36,687 nucleotides of DNA, taken from assembly GCA_024220525.1 (NCBI GenBank), contig JAMYWO010000075.1, forward strand, positions 126,100 through 162,786, read 5' to 3'. The DNA comes from Cochliopodium minus. Taxonomy: Eukaryota > Discosea > Himatismenida > Cochliopodiidae. How positions within the stretch are numbered: position 1 is the stretch's first letter; every line of letters starts with the position of its first letter. Shown one piece after another: positions 12,323 through 36,687 of the stretch. The translations under genes were made by a program, and so were the position numbers. Under the pieces are notes generated by a model, which saw only the letters and a program-made list of their open reading frames with translations, was not told the DNA's origin and did not search any database.

Positions 12323-14284
12323 CTATATTTTAATTCCAAGGTAATAATCCAAGTTAGGGACACCCTGGATAGCAGAATCAAGCTCAACATAATCAAAAGG
12401 ATCACGAGGATCAATCTCATCCTCCTCTTCCTCAACATACTGATTCTGATAGCTCTTCCTGTTGTTGTTCTTGTTGTAGTTGGAAACAGGCTTAGGAGAA
12501 GGAACACGAGGAACAGGCTGAGCAATGCTAGGAGTATTATTAGGACGCTCGGGATCATTCAAGTAGTTTTCGGAGAACTGTTTCACCATGGCACTGTCAA
12601 TAGACTTTGCCAAAATCTCAGGATGTCTTGTGGTGAGATGCTTTTGAATGAAACCTTCTGCTTTGAAGGCTTTTGTACAAAGTCTGCACTTGTACTTCTC
12701 TTCTCCCATCTTGTTGATGTTATCCCCCAAAAACAAGGAGGTGATCTCTTCGGTGGCCTTCTTTCCAGTGATGACAAAAGGGTTCTTGAGATGATCAAGT
12801 TTGAAATAAAAGTTGTTATCAAAGGTGTCTGTGATCTTGTTTGTGTTTGGTGATTCTTCTTGTTTGGGAGAAGAGCGGATGAAAACTTTTCCAGTGTTGA
12901 AGACGAGTTCTTCTTCATCAATAAACCCTTTGAGGCTGTAATAACAAAAGTAGTGGACACGTCTCAAATAATAGACCAAACGATCAAGAAAGTCTACATC
13001 AGTGTCACTTTCTCTTCTAAACAAAACAGGGTTTTGATTCTCCGAGAAAGTATTTCTCAAACTATCCAATTTCGAAATCAAAATTTGAGATTGCTTGATA
13101 TCCTTACCAATTCTTTCAGGAGAAGCAAAAATAGGATTGGCTTGTTTAATAGGTCTGATCTTAGGAGTATAATGAGCCAAACTGATTTTGTAACCAGTCC
13201 TAATCTCCCTTTCATTCAAGTGTTTAAGAACCAATGCAGCTTGCTCTTCAGTAGCATAAGAAGCCCAACCCTGTCTAGTCCAGCCTCTTTTCTCAGTAGG
13301 ATTAGAAAGAGTGAGTTTCAAAAGAGGAGCCTCCTCAACAGAGTTCAAAAAACTGAAAACTTCATCCTTGAAGCAATTGGGGTGAACTGTGCTAATAAAT
13401 AAAGTATGAGGTGGATGCGCAAGAAAATTGATCGTTTCTGTCTCTCCTGATGGTGTTTCGATAGATGGCTCGGGGTTTTGCAAGAGGACTTCTAATTGGT
13501 TGGAATCATCTTCGTAGTTCTCCACCTCATTGATCTCTTGGCTCTTTTGATATTCCTCTGGGAAATTTTGCTTGTAAAATTCGATATATCTTTCGAAATC
13601 GAGAGGTGGGACCACCAATCTATTCTCCTCTATCTCCTTGTTGAAATGAGAGGCATTATTTCTTATTTTATCGATCAGATCGTTATATGTTTTGGAGAGA
13701 TAATTTGGCTCGTATCTTTCCCTGAACCATTCCTTATCCTTGTTATTTCTGAAGAAATTCATGGACATTCTTCTCATATATTCTTCCTTATATTCCTTAT
13801 ATCTTCTATGTGATTCCTCTGTTGACATTTCATCTCCTTGGAAGCTCATATACAAATCATACACTTTTAATGGACCCTCATAGATATCGAAATTGGAGGT
13901 TGAGTTTCTATTTCTGTTGTTGTTGTTTGAATATTTGTTGTTTCCTTTGCTATATCTCCCTCTATTATTCCCTCCTCCCCTTCTATCATCTCTATTATTC
14001 TGATAATCTCTCCTATTGTCGTTTCTTCTGTAATTGTTTGTTGATCTATTGTTATTGAAATTATCTTCCCTCTCATCATCGTATCTTCTTTTTTTATAGG
14101 ATGAATTTGGTGATCTATCTCTTGATTTGCTTTTTCTCTTTCTATCTCTTTCTGGCTCTCTGTCTAAAATAATATTTCATTTGAAATATTGTTTATTATT
14201 AATTTTTTTTCTTGAATGAATAACTTTACCATTTCTGTTTGATTTATAAATGTTTGAATTATAATTTATATAATCATCACTCAT
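12323..14284 (-). CDS. srrt: ARS2/SERRATE RNA effector protein
   Basis: Two exons (14284-14230 and 14163-12323; 66-nt GT-AG intron) encode 631 aa. Residues 1-117 are Arg/Asp/Asn-rich and disordered (DREPERDRKRKSKSRDRSP). From 120 on comes the SERRATE/ARS2 N-terminal domain (YMSFQGDEMSTEESHRRYKE, then MNFFRNNKDKEWFRERY). An RRM-like domain spans about 271-353 (TLFISTVHP, GWASYATEEQAALVL). A Leu-rich segment with VDFLDRLVYYLRRVHYFCYY follows, then a C2H2 finger at 510-532 (YKCRLCTKAFKAEGFIQKHL) and an acidic, Pro-rich C-terminal tail. ARS2 links the nuclear cap-binding complex to RNA processing, small-RNA biogenesis and decay. The downstream LANCL gene starts 83 bases away. Confidence 0.92.
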
Positions 14285-14653: not shown

Positions 14654-14919
14654 ATGAAATCAGGGGAAATCGAAGAATTAATCTTCAGAATATTCATTGA
14701 AAAGAACGAAAGTTTTGGAATTGAAGAAAGTATAGATTTGGTGACCGCATTAAAGAATGAGAAATTAATAAAAACAAAATATGATCTCCTCAATTTTTTG
14801 CCTTTCATCCATCTCAATAAAATTGAATCCCCCAAAATAAATGAAAAAAAGAGCGAAATATATAAATTTTCAATGAATCTTTTCAATATGATCTCCTCTT
14901 TGATTGGAGAATTTATAAA
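14654..14919 (+). CDS. N-terminal fragment of unknown protein, cut by gap
   Basis: The ATG at 14654 follows an A-rich leader. It opens 88 codons of helix-rich sequence (EIEELIFRIFIEKNE, IDLVTALKNEKLIKTKYDLL, FSMNLFNMISSLIGEF). The frame runs into the N gap at 14920. The protein starts without a signal peptide and has no recognised motif. Confidence 0.45.
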
Positions 14920-15574
14920 NNNNNNNNNNNNNNNNNNNNNNNNNNNNNNNNNNNNNNNNNNNNNNNNNNNNNNNNNNNNNNNNNNNNNNNNNNNNNNNNN
15001 NNNNNNNNNNNNNNNNNNNNNNNNNNNNNNNNNNNNNNNNNNNNNNNNNNNNNNNNNNNNNNNNNNNNNNNNNNNNNNNNNNNNNNNNNNNNNNNNNNNN
15101 NNNNNNNNNNNNNNNNNNNNNNNNNNNNNNNNNNNNNNNNNNNNNNNNNNNNNNNNNNNNNNNNNNNNNNNNNNNNNNNNNNNNNNNNNNNNNNNNNNNN
15201 NNNNNNNNNNNNNNNNNNNNNNNNNNNNNNNNNNNNNNNNNNNNNNNNNNNNNNNNNNNNNNNNNNNNNNNNNNNNNNNNNNNNNNNNNNNNNNNNNNNN
15301 NNNNNNNNNNNNNNNNNNNNNNNNNNNNNNNNNNNNNNNNNNNNNNNNNNNNNNNNNNNNNNNNNNNNNNNNNNNNNNNNNNNNNNNNNNNNNNNNNNNN
15401 NNNNNNNNNNNNNNNNNNNNNNNNNNNNNNNNNNNNNNNNNNNNNNNNNNNNNNNNNNNNNNNNNNNNNNNNNNNNNNNNNNNNNNNNNNNNNNNNNNNN
15501 NNNNNNNNNNNNNNNNNNNNNNNNNNNNNNNNNNNNNNNNNNNNNNNNNNNNNNNNNNNNNNNNNNNNNNNNNN
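14920..15574. other. Assembly gap (655 N)
   Basis: A run of N. The right edge is an A-T7 microsatellite, which probably caused the break; the gap length may be an estimate. Confidence 0.98.
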
Positions 15575-15649
15575 TTTATTTTTTTATTTTTTTATTTTTT
15601 TATTTTTTTATTTTTTTATTTTTTTATTTTTTTATTTTTTTATTTTTTG
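15575..15649 (+). repeat. Period-8 A-T7 microsatellite
   Basis: Tandem ATTTTTTT units, probably within an intron because an exon begins after the TAG at 15655. The same array occurs at 21177-21250 beside another n. Confidence 0.9.
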
Positions 15650-24701: not shown

Positions 24702-27187
24702 TTAATATTTTTTATCAAACTTTTTGTAATTATTATTATTATTTTTGGTTGGAAACAAATCCTTTTTGATATCAACCCTTAATTTGTTTCCATTAAGAAG
24801 AGATCCATTCAATTTCAAAGAATCGTTTCGGTCCATTTCATTCTTGAAAAAAACAAAGCCAGTATAGAAAGTATTTTTGTTGTTATTGTTATCTTTTGGT
24901 TTGTTTATCTTTGCGAATTTAGGATTAAACTTTGAAAAATGATTTTTGAAATCGCTTTCATTTTGATCTTTCAAGTTTGAAACGAAAATAGCAAATTCTT
25001 TTGGTTTATGATCATTTAGATAAGAAGATGATGTAGAAAAGAATTCCAACAATTTTTTAAAAGTAAAATCTTTTTTGATATTACCCAAAACTTGGAAATG
25101 AGGGTATTTAGAGTTTGGATAAGACTTATCGGGCCTATGTTTCACAAAAGAAAAAGTATCCCTTTTCAGATCAAAAGAAAACTCAACAATCTGACCTTCT
25201 AACATGTAGAGATCATTTCCCTCATCTTTTGAATCGAAAGTATAAATAATGTCTTCCCTACCTTTGACAGGAATAGATAATTCAAACAAATTATCTTTCT
25301 CGCAAGAATAAAATTGAAAATCAACAGTTTGTAAGTAAGGAGGTTTCCATTTGTAAAAATATTCATTTTTGTTTCCAAAAATATATGGAGTATTCTTCGA
25401 AATAATGATTCCATCAGAAGGAAATTCTTTTTCGTCTTTGTTTGTTAATTGAGAATAAATAGATTCTAATTTGTCGAATTTCTTTGGTTCTTCAATTACA
25501 TACTCAAAGCTGAAGTCTTTTGTTTTCAATTTCAATTTTTTGTCAAAATTTTTTTCTAAACTTGAAAATCTTTCCAACAAAGTTTTCCCACAAACATTTT
25601 CTCCTTTACAAACAAGAATATCAAAAACAACAAATTTTAATACTGATTTTTCTTTCAAAAATACAACCTCCCCTAAAAAATTTTTTATTTTAATGTTAGT
25701 TTTTAATTTATTGAAAATTTTTAAAAAATTTTTGTTTTTACCATCCAAAATTGTTTCGTTTAAACTGTTGACAAAACTTGTAGAATTGTTTTCTTCGATC
25801 AATTTTTGATCAAGTTGAAACAATTTCAAGGAAGTGTTAACAAAATATACAGAGCCATTATAAAAACAGCTGAAAAACCTCATTCCATCCGCTTGTAGGA
25901 AGAAAAAAAGGTCAGAAGAGTCCATACTTTGGGATTTTAAATCAAGCACAGCAGGGACTTTTCCGAAAAAAGATATATGATTAATTTCCTCCAAATTTAA
26001 CTTTTCAAAAAGTTTTTTTTTCAGAAAATAAGATTCCTCAAAGTCCAGCTTGCTCACTATTTTGTCAAGGTGGACATTGTTGGATTCCGTGAGAATAAAA
26101 TTTTTGCTTTTGAAGACAGTTTCTTTGTTGTGTTTTGTGTCTTTGCATTTAGAAAAAATCTCCTCAATATCAGATGTAACTTCTTCGATAGACTTTCTTG
26201 CATCCACAACATGATATTTCCCCACAGATTTAAAGTATTTTCTAATGAGAGCTAAAAAATCAAAAATTATATGAATTAAAATGAATTAATAATGAAAAAA
26301 AAAAATGAATGAAAATGAATTAACTTTGAATTAACAATGAAAAATAAAAATAAAAAAAGATTTACGCATATTTTGGTAAAATGTTTCCACTCTTCTTATG
26401 TGATTCTCTTCTTCATCATCCTTTCTCTTCAGCACATTTCCCTCACTCTTTTGATTAGGAGGAGGGTTGAATTTAGCGTGGAAAACATTTCCATTGTCAT
26501 CTTCAATTCTTCCACTCGCCCTCTCTTCAAGTATACCCCTTTCATCTCCCACATCAAACTCTATGAATGCCTTTATTTCAAAGGATGACTTTTCCAAAAT
26601 TTTTTCAAGTCGGGGTATTGAAGAGACGAAATTTGGAGAGCTTTCGAACAGTAGTCCTTTCCCCTTTTCTCCTGCTTCCAAAATCAACTTATCCTCTATT
26701 TCTAGCCCCAATTCTGTCAATGTTCTTCTGTTAAAGTTTTTGTCAATGTAATTCCCTAAAAAATTAAAATATAAAAAATATAATTAATGTGTTTTTTTTT
26801 TTCAGCTAAAATCATTTTGATTTTATATTTATTAATTTATAACTTTTACCTATTTCTGTATCTTCTCTCCTCTTGTTTCTCAATTCATTTCCAACATTCA
26901 CATGTATCAAATCATATAATTCTTTTAATATTTGGCATTGGGTACCCTATAAAAAGAAAAACGAAAAATTAATAGAACTTATAAAAATAAATCGATTTAT
27001 ATTCCAGATATTTAGATTATATATTGATCTCAAAGATATTATTTATTAATTATGCTTTTGATTTTTTTTTAAAATATAATATCATTTTCTATACCTTTCC
27101 AGATGCTGGTGGTCCAGATAATAGGATAGCTTGGTTTTTAAAATCTTTTTTATTATCAATCTTCATTTTTTTATTTTTGTTTTCCAT
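24702..27187 (-). CDS. Adenylate kinase-mRNA guanylyltransferase-RRM fusion with altered motif I
   Basis: Four exons (27187-27095, 26946-26850, 26755-26366, 26251-24702) give 709 aa. Residues 20-215 are an adenylate-kinase-like domain: P-loop GPPASGK (25-31), HVNVGNELR, the LID with ERASGR (141-146) and HAKFNPPP (156-163), RKDDEEEN and the final KYHVVDARKSIEEV. The usual GFPR Arg is absent. Residues 270-590 are a GTP:RNA guanylyltransferase: motif III FDILVCKG, motif IV DGIIIS (473-478), motif V YKWKPPYLQTVDF and OB-fold motif HRPDKSYPN (565-573). Motif I reads QADGMR (313-318), with Gln where KxDG has its GMP-accepting Lys. Residues 611-692 are an RRM (FAIFVSNL, YTGFVFF). It would act on 5' RNA ends in the nucleus if active. 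The C-terminal tail is Asn/Lys-rich. Confidence 0.85.
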
Positions 27188-33278: not shown

Positions 33279-36200
33279 TTATATTAAAAAAAAAAGAAAA
33301 GATTTTTTTACATTTAAAATTAGAATGACAACATAAAACAAAGAAACCATATAATCATTTCCAAAAGAAACAATTAAACCATCACTACTTTCCAAGGAAT
33401 GAAACTTGGGAAAGGAAGCGACCAACTTCTCATCATACCACAACAAAGCAGAAGAACGAGAAAGAGACTTGGGAAGAGAAGTTTCCTTCAAAGAAGTGTT
33501 ATCCTCTGTATACTGAAGATCAAGATCATCCGTCTTTGCCTCAAACAAATTTAAGTTGTGTTTGTTGTAATATTTGAGGACATGAACATAGTATCTAATA
33601 ATCTTCTCCGTATTGATGTTAGGAAGGGTATTGAGAATAAAACGCATGGTGAACTCATCCGTCTCTACCTCATCCTCTGTTTTTTCTTGGGGGAAAAATT
33701 CCTTCTGCTCACAATGGTCAGACAACTTGAGGAGAAACTCCTTCTCCAACATTTGTATCAATTTACTGTCGGGAACAAGACATTCGTCATAAGTTTTCCA
33801 CCAATCATCACATTTAATGATAGGACTTTTTTTAAGAACAGTGTCTATTGTCCTTCTCAAAACGTCGAACCAATTACATCTCTTTCCAATTTTGTTGAGA
33901 ACTTTCTCATAAAATTGTTGGCAATGATCCTGTATGGAGTTTAGAACGTGATACGCTTCGTTGTGCGGATCTCCGAAAAAGCTTTCAGAAAGAAGGGAGA
34001 TTCCTATCAGGTTTGCGACTTTATTTCTCATTATGGGAGGCATTGATACAAGGATGAGAAATGGTCTCAACATTCCTTCTTTTCTTGACTTTTCCTTAAA
34101 TTCTGACGATTTTTCCTTTTAAAAAAATTAAAAAAAAAATTAAAAAAAAATTAAAAAAAATATTTATTACTAATTGAGACATTATTTGTTGGATTTTCCA
34201 ACGGTTTGGGTCGAGTACCATATTTCTTTTCAATTGCAAGTTTTTCCAGAAGGTGAGAGGATCCATCATTTTCTTTTGTAAAACTTGGAAGTGGCAAGAA
34301 GTGCAAAGAAAAGTGTTCAAAAGAGAAGAAAATTTCGCCATGTCTCTCATACATTTCATACAACAAATGGTCTATCGAAAAAAAAATAATTAAATAAAAA
34401 AAAAAAGTGAAAAAAATAAAAAAAGTGAAAAAAATATTTTTTACTTTATTTGTACAAGATTCACAAAAGTAAACATCCCTTGTGTAAAAGTTTTTCTGCA
34501 CCAATTGATGATCAGACTGCTCGACGCACCAAGAACACCACCTCTCCTTTTTGATGATTTTCATCTTGCTGGCACTCTCCCAACTAGGAAAGACTCCCTG
34601 ACATACGATACAGTTGTCCTCGTCCCACGTGTCGCTTCCCTTGGCGAATTCCGCGCACTTTTTGCATTCCAATGTCTTTTGTTTGCAGCTCAGGCATTGG
34701 TAGACTGATCTTCTCATCACATAGTTTCTGAACACCTTGTGTTCTGTTGTTTTGCAGCACCAAGAACATCTTTTTTTTAAAAAAGAAAAAAAAATCAAAA
34801 AAATTGTTATGTTTTATTGTCTATTTTGAATATTAAACAATAATGTTGATTTTTTTTATTTTTTTGAATAACTCTTTTTTAAAAAAAAAAAAGTATAATT
34901 AAATAGAAATCTTTACTTTCCAGATTTAATGAGACCATTGATGTTCCTGCTATGTTTTGCAAAGGTTCCATCACACTTAAAACAAAGTTTATCCGATCCC
35001 TAAACATTTAACAAATGAAAAAAAAAAAAATTAGTTTTTTAAAAGAAGAAATGATGAGTACAAAATCAAAAAAAAATGAAAATATTTATAATCTTTACAA
35101 AAAAATAATACTGAAAAGAAAAAAAAAAGTATAAATTTTTACACTGGTCGCGTAACTTCTGCACATCGCAGTATTACAACCAACACAAGGAATGGTCTCA
35201 TGAGAACAACCAATGCAAGTATGCTTATTTCTAGCCAACCAGTTCTTCTCAGTCTGCTCATGATCAGTGATCTCCCAGCACCAAGAACACCACCTCGTGC
35301 AAAAAACAAAGTGGATGGGTTTGGGTATCTTCAACTCGCTCTTCTGATCTATCTCTATGTCCAAGTTGAAAGAGGGAGGTGCGAACATCTCTGGCAGTTC
35401 TATCTCTATCCTGTTTGGATCTTTGGAGGTGGAGGGATCTATCGGATCTGAGTTCAGTTTGATCAATGGTTGTTGTGTATTGATTGATTGTTGTGATGAA
35501 GATGTTGGGGATGATTTGTTTTCCATTTTTTTGAAATCTTCCAAATTGATCACATTGGTGATATTATTATTATTATTCACACCGTTACTTTTTTCTTTAA
35601 GAGCATTAATGTTATTGTTTGGATTGTTGTTATAATTATTGTTATTGTTTGTATTTTTGTTTTCGTTTGGTTTGTTGGATGGAGTATTGCTATTGATACT
35701 CAATCCCTCAAATATGCTTTTGGAATTATTATCATTTACACTATTATTTTCCTTCTTCCCTTCTAATTGGACATAATTGGTCTTATTATCTTTCGTGGTT
35801 GTAATATTTCCATTCAAATTATCATTATTGCTTTTTGGAGGAGTGCTATCATCATTGAGAAGGAAGGAATAATTGTTCTGATTATTAGTTTTCTTCCTTT
35901 CATCACTGAATGAACCTTGTTGTTTATCGAATTTATTCAATTCCTCTTGTATCAATGATTTATTCTCATTATCCAAAAAGCTTAATTCACCAGCCAAATT
36001 TTTATTTGTAGATTTGCCCATTAGAAAAGAATTATCACCCAATTTTTTCTTTAGTTCAGATTCTAAATGGTTATTATTCCGATTATCAATCTTATTTTGT
36101 GTTTCCAATAAACTATTTTCACTCAAATTCAAATCTTGTGTGGATTTTTTCATATTGTTGAAGATCTCCATTATTTCGTTGAAATTATTCTCATTATGAT

Positions 36201-36372
36201 CAGTGTTACCATCTATCTCTGACACATTTAGATTGATGCCACTGGAAGAAAGGATTTTATCAAGTTCTTTATCATCAAATTCTTCAATTTCATTATTTTG
36301 ATTGGATTGATTTGAATTGGTAGTCAATTTCAAATCATCAAAATTGAATAGATTGAGATCTTTCCTGTTCAT
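33279..36372 (-). CDS. Asn-rich protein with three tandem CSWC cysteine repeats
   Basis: Five exons (36372-35143, 34999-34917, 34769-34445, 34371-34171, 34115-33279) sum to 891 aa. Residues 1-340 are Asn/Ser-rich and acidic. Three repeats follow. Each opens CSWC-x5-6-H, then an Arg-rich turn (ARNKHTC, MRRSVYQC, TRDVYFC), C-x2-C, a second C-x2-C (CVGC, CKKC, CMKC) and a last C-x2-C (CFKC, CIVC, CTSC): eight Cys and one His per unit, likely binding two zincs each. The C-terminal part (about 613-891) is helical (NKVANLIGISLLSESFF, ECLVPDSKLIQMLEKEF) and ends in a hydrophobic helix (MVSLFYVVILILNV). I do not know a named family for these repeats. Introns fall inside each repeat at different places. 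Confidence 0.7.
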
Positions 36373-36687
36373 TGAATGAACTTTTCTATTTCAAATTTTT
36401 TTTTAATTTTTTTTAAACTTAAATTAATAAAAAATGATGGTAGATCGTATATGGGACCTTTATTTTTGTTTGAGATTGGAATATAGGTGAATAAATTTCA
36501 AATGGAATGATTTCTATAAATATTATCCAATTCAATCAAAGTTATACCAATGTTTCCAAATCATTTAAATGATGATGTCAACAATTTTGATGGATATTAA
36601 AGATATAAATGCAATAATTTATTATGTTCATACGCTATTGAATATATTTTCATATACCGTTCAAATTTGGCTCAAATTGAGCTTATA
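36373..36687. other. Upstream region of the CSWC gene
   Basis: AT-rich; probably promoter and 5' leader of the minus-strand gene. No coding or RNA feature seen. Confidence 0.4.

Follow-up and report, generated by a model that had tools for sequence, protein, structure and literature searches.

Structure of the fusion gene

The window, that is, the whole stretch of 36,687 nucleotides that was analyzed, contains on its minus strand (27187-24702) a single gene for a three-domain protein: adenylate kinase family (AK), mRNA guanylyltransferase (GTase) and RRM. This gene is designated here as the fusion gene. An earlier note on this DNA described it as a four-exon frame of 709 codons, which is open as described. 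However, the frame conceals an additional intron, and the corrected model has five exons and 686 aa. The hidden in-frame intron has 69 nt (25741-25673), lies within motif III of the GTase domain, starts with GTAAAAAC and ends with TTTTTTAG. Its GC content, about 7%, is lower than that of the three other introns (11-15%) and of exon 4 in the earlier model taken as a whole (28%). Before the correction motif III reads as ILDG and EVV separated by 23 residues, whereas the removal of the 69 nt gives ILDGEVV and raises the score of the Pfam family mRNA_cap_enzyme (PF01331) from 50.5 to 68.6 bits. Judged by GC content at the three codon positions, the stretches for AK, GTase and RRM look coding, and the hidden intron does not. 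All four introns of the gene are predicted.

The features of the gene are all placed on the minus strand. Exon 1 (27095..27187) runs from the start codon to the P-loop SGPPASGK (27118-27095). Exons 2 (26850..26946) and 3 (26366..26755) encode the AK domain. The former contains the segment VGNELR (26895-26878) and the latter contains FESSPN (26648-26631), which replaces DGFPR/DGYPR, as well as the lid ERASGR (26525-26508), KRKDD (26429-26415) and HIRR (26402-26391). Exon 4 (25742..26251) completes the AK domain and begins the GTase domain, including motif I QADGMR (25895-25878), and breaks off partway through motif III. Exon 5 (24702..25672) covers the GTase domain from the end of motif III to motif VI, an OB-like region, the RRM and the stop codon. 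Since exon 4 carries both the last part of the AK domain and motif I of the GTase, the fusion does not depend on the joining of two genes, a split that the earlier note had considered. Three-base periodicity is present in all three domains across the 686 codons. The family scores above the cut-offs, the 686-codon frame and the periodicity set the observation beyond chance.

Domain assignment

The two enzymatic domains proposed earlier are both borne out by the profile scores. In the whole protein the Pfam family ADK (PF00406) scores 67.8 bits, over residues 23-202, against a cut-off of 26.8, and mRNA_cap_enzyme scores 68.6 bits in the corrected model (residues 312-473) against a cut-off of 29.6, which the four-exon model also exceeds with its 50.5 bits. 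The earlier statement that motifs III, IV, V and the OB domain are intact stands for motifs IV (SDGIII, 25418-25401) and V (KWKPP, 25352-25338), and for motif III in the corrected model only. The OB-fold C-terminal domain mRNA_cap_C (PF03919) scores 22.4 bits, below the cut-off of 26.5, although motif VI (HRPDKSYPN, 25139-25113) is plain. Motif IIIa reads FVVFD (25634-25620).

The RRM is confirmed on a C-terminal fragment. In a scan restricted to the last 109 aa, RRM_1 (PF00076) reaches 30.5 bits, against a cut-off of 20.7, over residues 592-662 (24777..24989), but it is absent from the full-length Pfam scans. An RNP2-like segment, AIFVSNL, begins at 24992 and an RNP1-like segment, YTGFVFF, is placed at 24866-24846. 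The comparison with RRM proteins of solved structure gave weak matches (best E 0.0016), and NCBIfam gave no match for the 109-aa fragment. An AlphaFold model of the exon 4-5 reading, computed with three paralog rows, had a mean pLDDT of 33.4 and was discarded.

Genomic surroundings

The neighbors of the fusion gene include, besides the ARS2 gene described below, TMEM135-like and Frag1-like open reading frames, both below the cut-off. A viral origin of the gene was considered and showed no sign, as the adjoining open reading frames look like host genes. A scan of a viral contig collection with the fusion protein, sensitive to close relatives only, found none. An adenosylhomocysteinase marker from the genome had its best matches in the PDB entries 6uk3 (808.5 bits) and 5v96 (766.8 bits), which belong to Acanthamoeba and Naegleria, respectively. 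An ARS2/SERRATE gene, which codes for a nuclear RNA protein, is located about 11 kb from the fusion gene (12323-14176, minus strand; Pfam 57.7 and 50.6 bits, above the cut-off). The window also contains open reading frames with a repeated Cys-rich motif CSWCxxxTxH...C on the minus strand (34151-34813 and 35095-36390), neither of which has a Pfam family, and a run of about 660 N at 14913-15575 that is read as X in the reading frames.

The missing catalytic lysine

In the guanylyltransferase family the covalent enzyme-GMP intermediate cannot form without the lysine of the KxDG motif. In the fusion gene the corresponding codon (25893..25895) is CAA and codes for Gln313, as the earlier note had reported. 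The phmmer alignment to the mammalian capping enzyme 3rtx agrees: FFLQADGMRFF is paired with VSWKADGTRYM, with the glutamine on the lysine of KADG. With MAFFT, the glutamine falls in the lysine column of the mammalian chain and of two further GTases of the same genome, C324 and C158. A 157-nt probe over the motif I site has a single match in the genome, which is its own locus. The restoration of the lysine by another hidden intron was evaluated with the in-frame donor/acceptor pairs inside exon 4 whose acceptor lies between 40 nt before and 6 nt after the glutamine codon. The three pairs found each leave a glutamine before xDG, and their GC fraction is 0.32-0.39, against 0.07-0.15 in the real introns. 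The alignments, the splice test and the single-match probe therefore indicate that the glutamine belongs to the assembly and occupies the correct column. The earlier proposal of a GTase that lacks its nucleotidyl lysine and is joined to an AK is thus supported by alignments and profile scores, and the predicted product is a GTase-family domain without this residue fused to an AK-type domain.

The remainder of the GTase domain is well preserved at the positions that define the family. Across motifs I-VI the fusion protein keeps 17/18 signature residues, the lysine alone being missing, and all 14 sites in motifs III, IIIa, IV, V and VI are kept. The 18 residues were taken from the mammalian chain and are the authors' own choice, based on the motif definitions of the family. 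Outside these sites, the identity to the mammalian capping enzyme is 16% over 219 columns. Judged from the sequence, this pattern would fit a domain that is still selected to bind its ligand and, equally, a functional enzyme in whose sequence a single base is wrong. The count by itself does not show a binding-only domain, as C324, which is presumed to be active, also has 17/18.

Other guanylyltransferases and cap genes of the genome

The search of the genome with the PF01331 profile gave six matches, five of them above the cut-off; the sixth, C18, is a putative DNA ligase gene. C324 is a complete stand-alone GTase with KTDG and the later motifs, in which one motif III glycine is changed and the lysine is present. 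It represents the second GTase with an intact KxDG for which the earlier note had proposed a search, and it is likely the capping enzyme of the host. The genome also has a cap N7-methyltransferase match on C15 (131.8 bits). Given this methyltransferase and a complete KTDG enzyme elsewhere, the fusion gene need not serve ordinary capping.

The other GTases differ in their state of conservation. C158 has KTDG and keeps 13/13 of the signature sites that it covers. C173 keeps 12/18, with Asn in place of the lysine (NPDG), and C11 keeps 11/18, with KSQS at motif I. In the predicted proteins, the paralogs C11 and C173 are eroded widely, whereas the fusion GTase has lost one signature residue. At C173 (15000-24999, plus strand) the GTase-like gene without the lysine has also changed the motif III glutamate and the motif IV aspartate in a hand-spliced model. 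The GTase-like gene with KSQS at C11 (70000-79999, minus strand) has upstream exons that we take, by a motif, to resemble a triphosphatase; Pfam gave no family. Its predicted product may be a further GTase without catalysis, joined to a different capping domain. At C158 (79000-88725) the KTDG gene is cut near the contig end and runs into a putative P450 sequence, so that the locus is a truncated gene or an assembly join.

The identities of the fusion GTase to the five others compared are 22-28%, with 25.6% for C324. It has the longest branch of six GTases (2.21 changes per column, followed by C173 with 2.07) in a tree in which no fork reached the good-support mark of the tool. The low identities and the long branch argue against a recent duplication of the genuine capping enzyme, where duplication is one of the origins suggested in the earlier note. 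C158 was also considered as a lysine-bearing copy of the fusion gene and rejected, as it pairs with C11 instead (94/95 support). Within its own genome, the fusion locus is the only match both of the 157-nt probe and of a search with the protein, with neither a second copy carrying the lysine nor, by the protein search, an orthologue; in the latter search the RRM end also matched C6 weakly. The genome search with the RNA triphosphatase family PF02940 found no match, but the control matched nowhere either and the result is uninformative.

The adenylate kinase domain

The roles of the AK arginines are known from the E. coli enzyme, where the arginine of the GFPR segment grips the AMP phosphate. 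The best PDB match of the kinase half is the adenylate kinase 2rgx, which has a lid domain and is matched over the full domain (residues 22-226, E 3.4e-25). This alignment shows an intact P-loop and retained arginines in GDxLR, ERASGR, KRKDD and HIRR. In contrast, the AMP-site FDGFPR of 2rgx is replaced by FESSPN and STGD by NVGN. The absence of the GFPR arginine, already remarked in the earlier note, is thus confirmed, and the other AK arginines that were looked for are present. Among the matches listed in the search of the genome for AK genes, DGYPR is found at 5/5 AK sites in four other AK loci; the fusion gene itself is absent among them. The NCBIfam adk score of the fusion protein is 108.5, below the cut-off of 168. 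From these residues the ATP side of the kinase half looks usable and the AMP side changed, which fits either a different acceptor of the phosphate or an inactive kinase.

Proteins of similar architecture

In TbCe1, the cytoplasmic recapping enzyme of Trypanosoma brucei, the kinase is N-terminal. The enzyme is described as having RNA kinase and guanylyltransferase activities, which convert 5'-monophosphate RNA to GpppRNA (PMC11417388). A second trypanosome protein, TbG5-IP (Tb927.11.14590), a partner of EIF4E6/EIF4G5, is reported to contain NTP-hydrolase and guanylyltransferase domains and to bind EIF4G5, and TbCe1 is described in the same source as structurally similar to it (PMC5750579). The guanylyltransferase domain of TbG5-IP has been suggested to be important for cap binding (PMC10810786). 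These two proteins have the closest known architecture to that of the fusion protein, and their kinase or NTPase plus GTase domains, as described in PMC11417388 and PMC5750579, bear out the remark of the earlier note on an N-terminal P-loop extension in kinetoplastid capping enzymes. The comparison was made from the published descriptions. As in TbCe1, kinase and GTase are found within one chain, but the fusion protein has a glutamine for the catalytic lysine and an additional RRM, and its gene has four cis-introns, a number that makes a trypanosomatid host unlikely. With TbG5-IP it shares a P-loop NTP-hydrolase and a guanylyltransferase domain, and it differs by the added RRM.

The GTase domain of the mammalian capping enzyme (3rtx, 3s24) is aligned with the fusion protein from motif I through motif VI (E 3.3e-9). 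The fusion protein differs from it by the absence of the nucleophile and by the AK and RRM domains, which replace the N-terminal triphosphatase domain. In mammals GMP is reported to be bound covalently at Lys294 of the capping enzyme, the 5'-kinase activity is distinct from it and associates with Nck1, and cytoplasmic capping is inhibited by an inactive K294A enzyme confined to the cytoplasm (PMC4138027). Among the matches listed in the literature on the topic, neither a lysine-less guanylyltransferase nor, by that name, an adenylate kinase-guanylyltransferase fusion was found.

Proposed role and alternative explanations

The explanation that is tentatively preferred, at somewhat less than even confidence, is that the fusion protein may be an RNA 5'-end kinase or binder of TbCe1-type build, whose GTase half would bind without covalent GMP. 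The RRM and the GTase pocket would hold GTP or the mRNA 5' end with no transfer of covalent GMP, while the kinase, with its site for free AMP remodeled, would act on the RNA 5' phosphate (e.g. pRNA to ppRNA). Ordinary capping would be left to the separate KTDG enzyme C324. The likeness to TbCe1 is drawn from the order of the domains, kinase then GTase. The C-terminal RRM, the complete KTDG GTase and the cap N7-methyltransferase also favor this explanation. The binding role of the GTase is suggested by the loss of the lysine alone among the 18 sites, despite 16% identity elsewhere, next to eroded paralogs. A kinase for RNA phosphate is suggested by ESSPN at the AMP site, where other AKs of the genome have DGYPR, together with the kept P-loop and lid arginines. 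The loss of the AMP-site arginine could equally mean a dead kinase, which counts against this explanation, as do the RRM, above the cut-off as a fragment only, and the OB domain, below it.

A more specific form of the TbCe1-type explanation, held as a rather less probable conjecture, is that the GTase is a natural, covalently dead domain under selection. The kinase-armed protein would then phosphorylate or hold decapped mRNA, and would pass it to the capping enzyme or withhold it. If true, the protein would be the cell's own version of the capping-enzyme inhibitor made in the laboratory by a change of the lysine to alanine, here in a non-trypanosomatid host.

It is also conceivable, though on balance unlikely, that the protein is a binding-only adaptor like the trypanosome G5-IP, in which the kinase and GTase folds would serve to hold nucleotides or the 5' ends of mRNA and would catalyze nothing; the setting might be a complex of translation or an mRNP. 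The precedent of G5-IP, which binds EIF4G5 and whose GTase is proposed as a cap-binding aid (PMC5750579, PMC10810786), is joined by the NMP-kinase fold reported as an exapted RNA-binding domain in RNA viruses (PMC11796362), and the AMP-site motif is indeed lost in the fusion protein. However, a domain for binding alone would have no need of the P-loop lysine and the four lid arginines, all of which are retained.

A base error at any one particular codon would generally be rare. The fusion protein may nevertheless be an ordinary active kinase-capping enzyme of the TbCe1 type, in which the glutamine stems from a one-base assembly error, itself unlikely, from a null allele or from a loss that happened very recently. 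CAA is one base from AAA, a single assembly is available and the other signature residues are intact. On the other hand, C173 and C11 also lack an intact KxDG, so that such a loss does occur in this genome, and the remainder of the fusion gene is free of frameshift; this explanation is considered improbable. More improbable still is a former capping enzyme that drifts towards loss and is retained meanwhile by its kinase or RRM part, which the longest branch of the six GTases favors but against which stand the intact frame, splice sites and 17/18 signature residues, and the wider erosion that C11 and C173 display.

Significance

The recapping of decapped mRNA requires a kinase that produces 5'-diphosphate ends, and the mammalian kinase of this type was called unidentified in the discussion of a 2024 paper (PMC11417388). 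As read from its domains, the fusion protein suggests a worker on mRNA 5' ends, or a sensor of them, that is unable to cap in the conventional way. The gene carries introns and so probably lies outside the trypanosomatids; its union of kinase and GTase would make AK-fold proteins candidates for the recapping kinase, and a GTase that lacks its nucleophile and keeps the other signature sites would be a natural capping domain used for binding only. Both ideas are testable with one purified protein.
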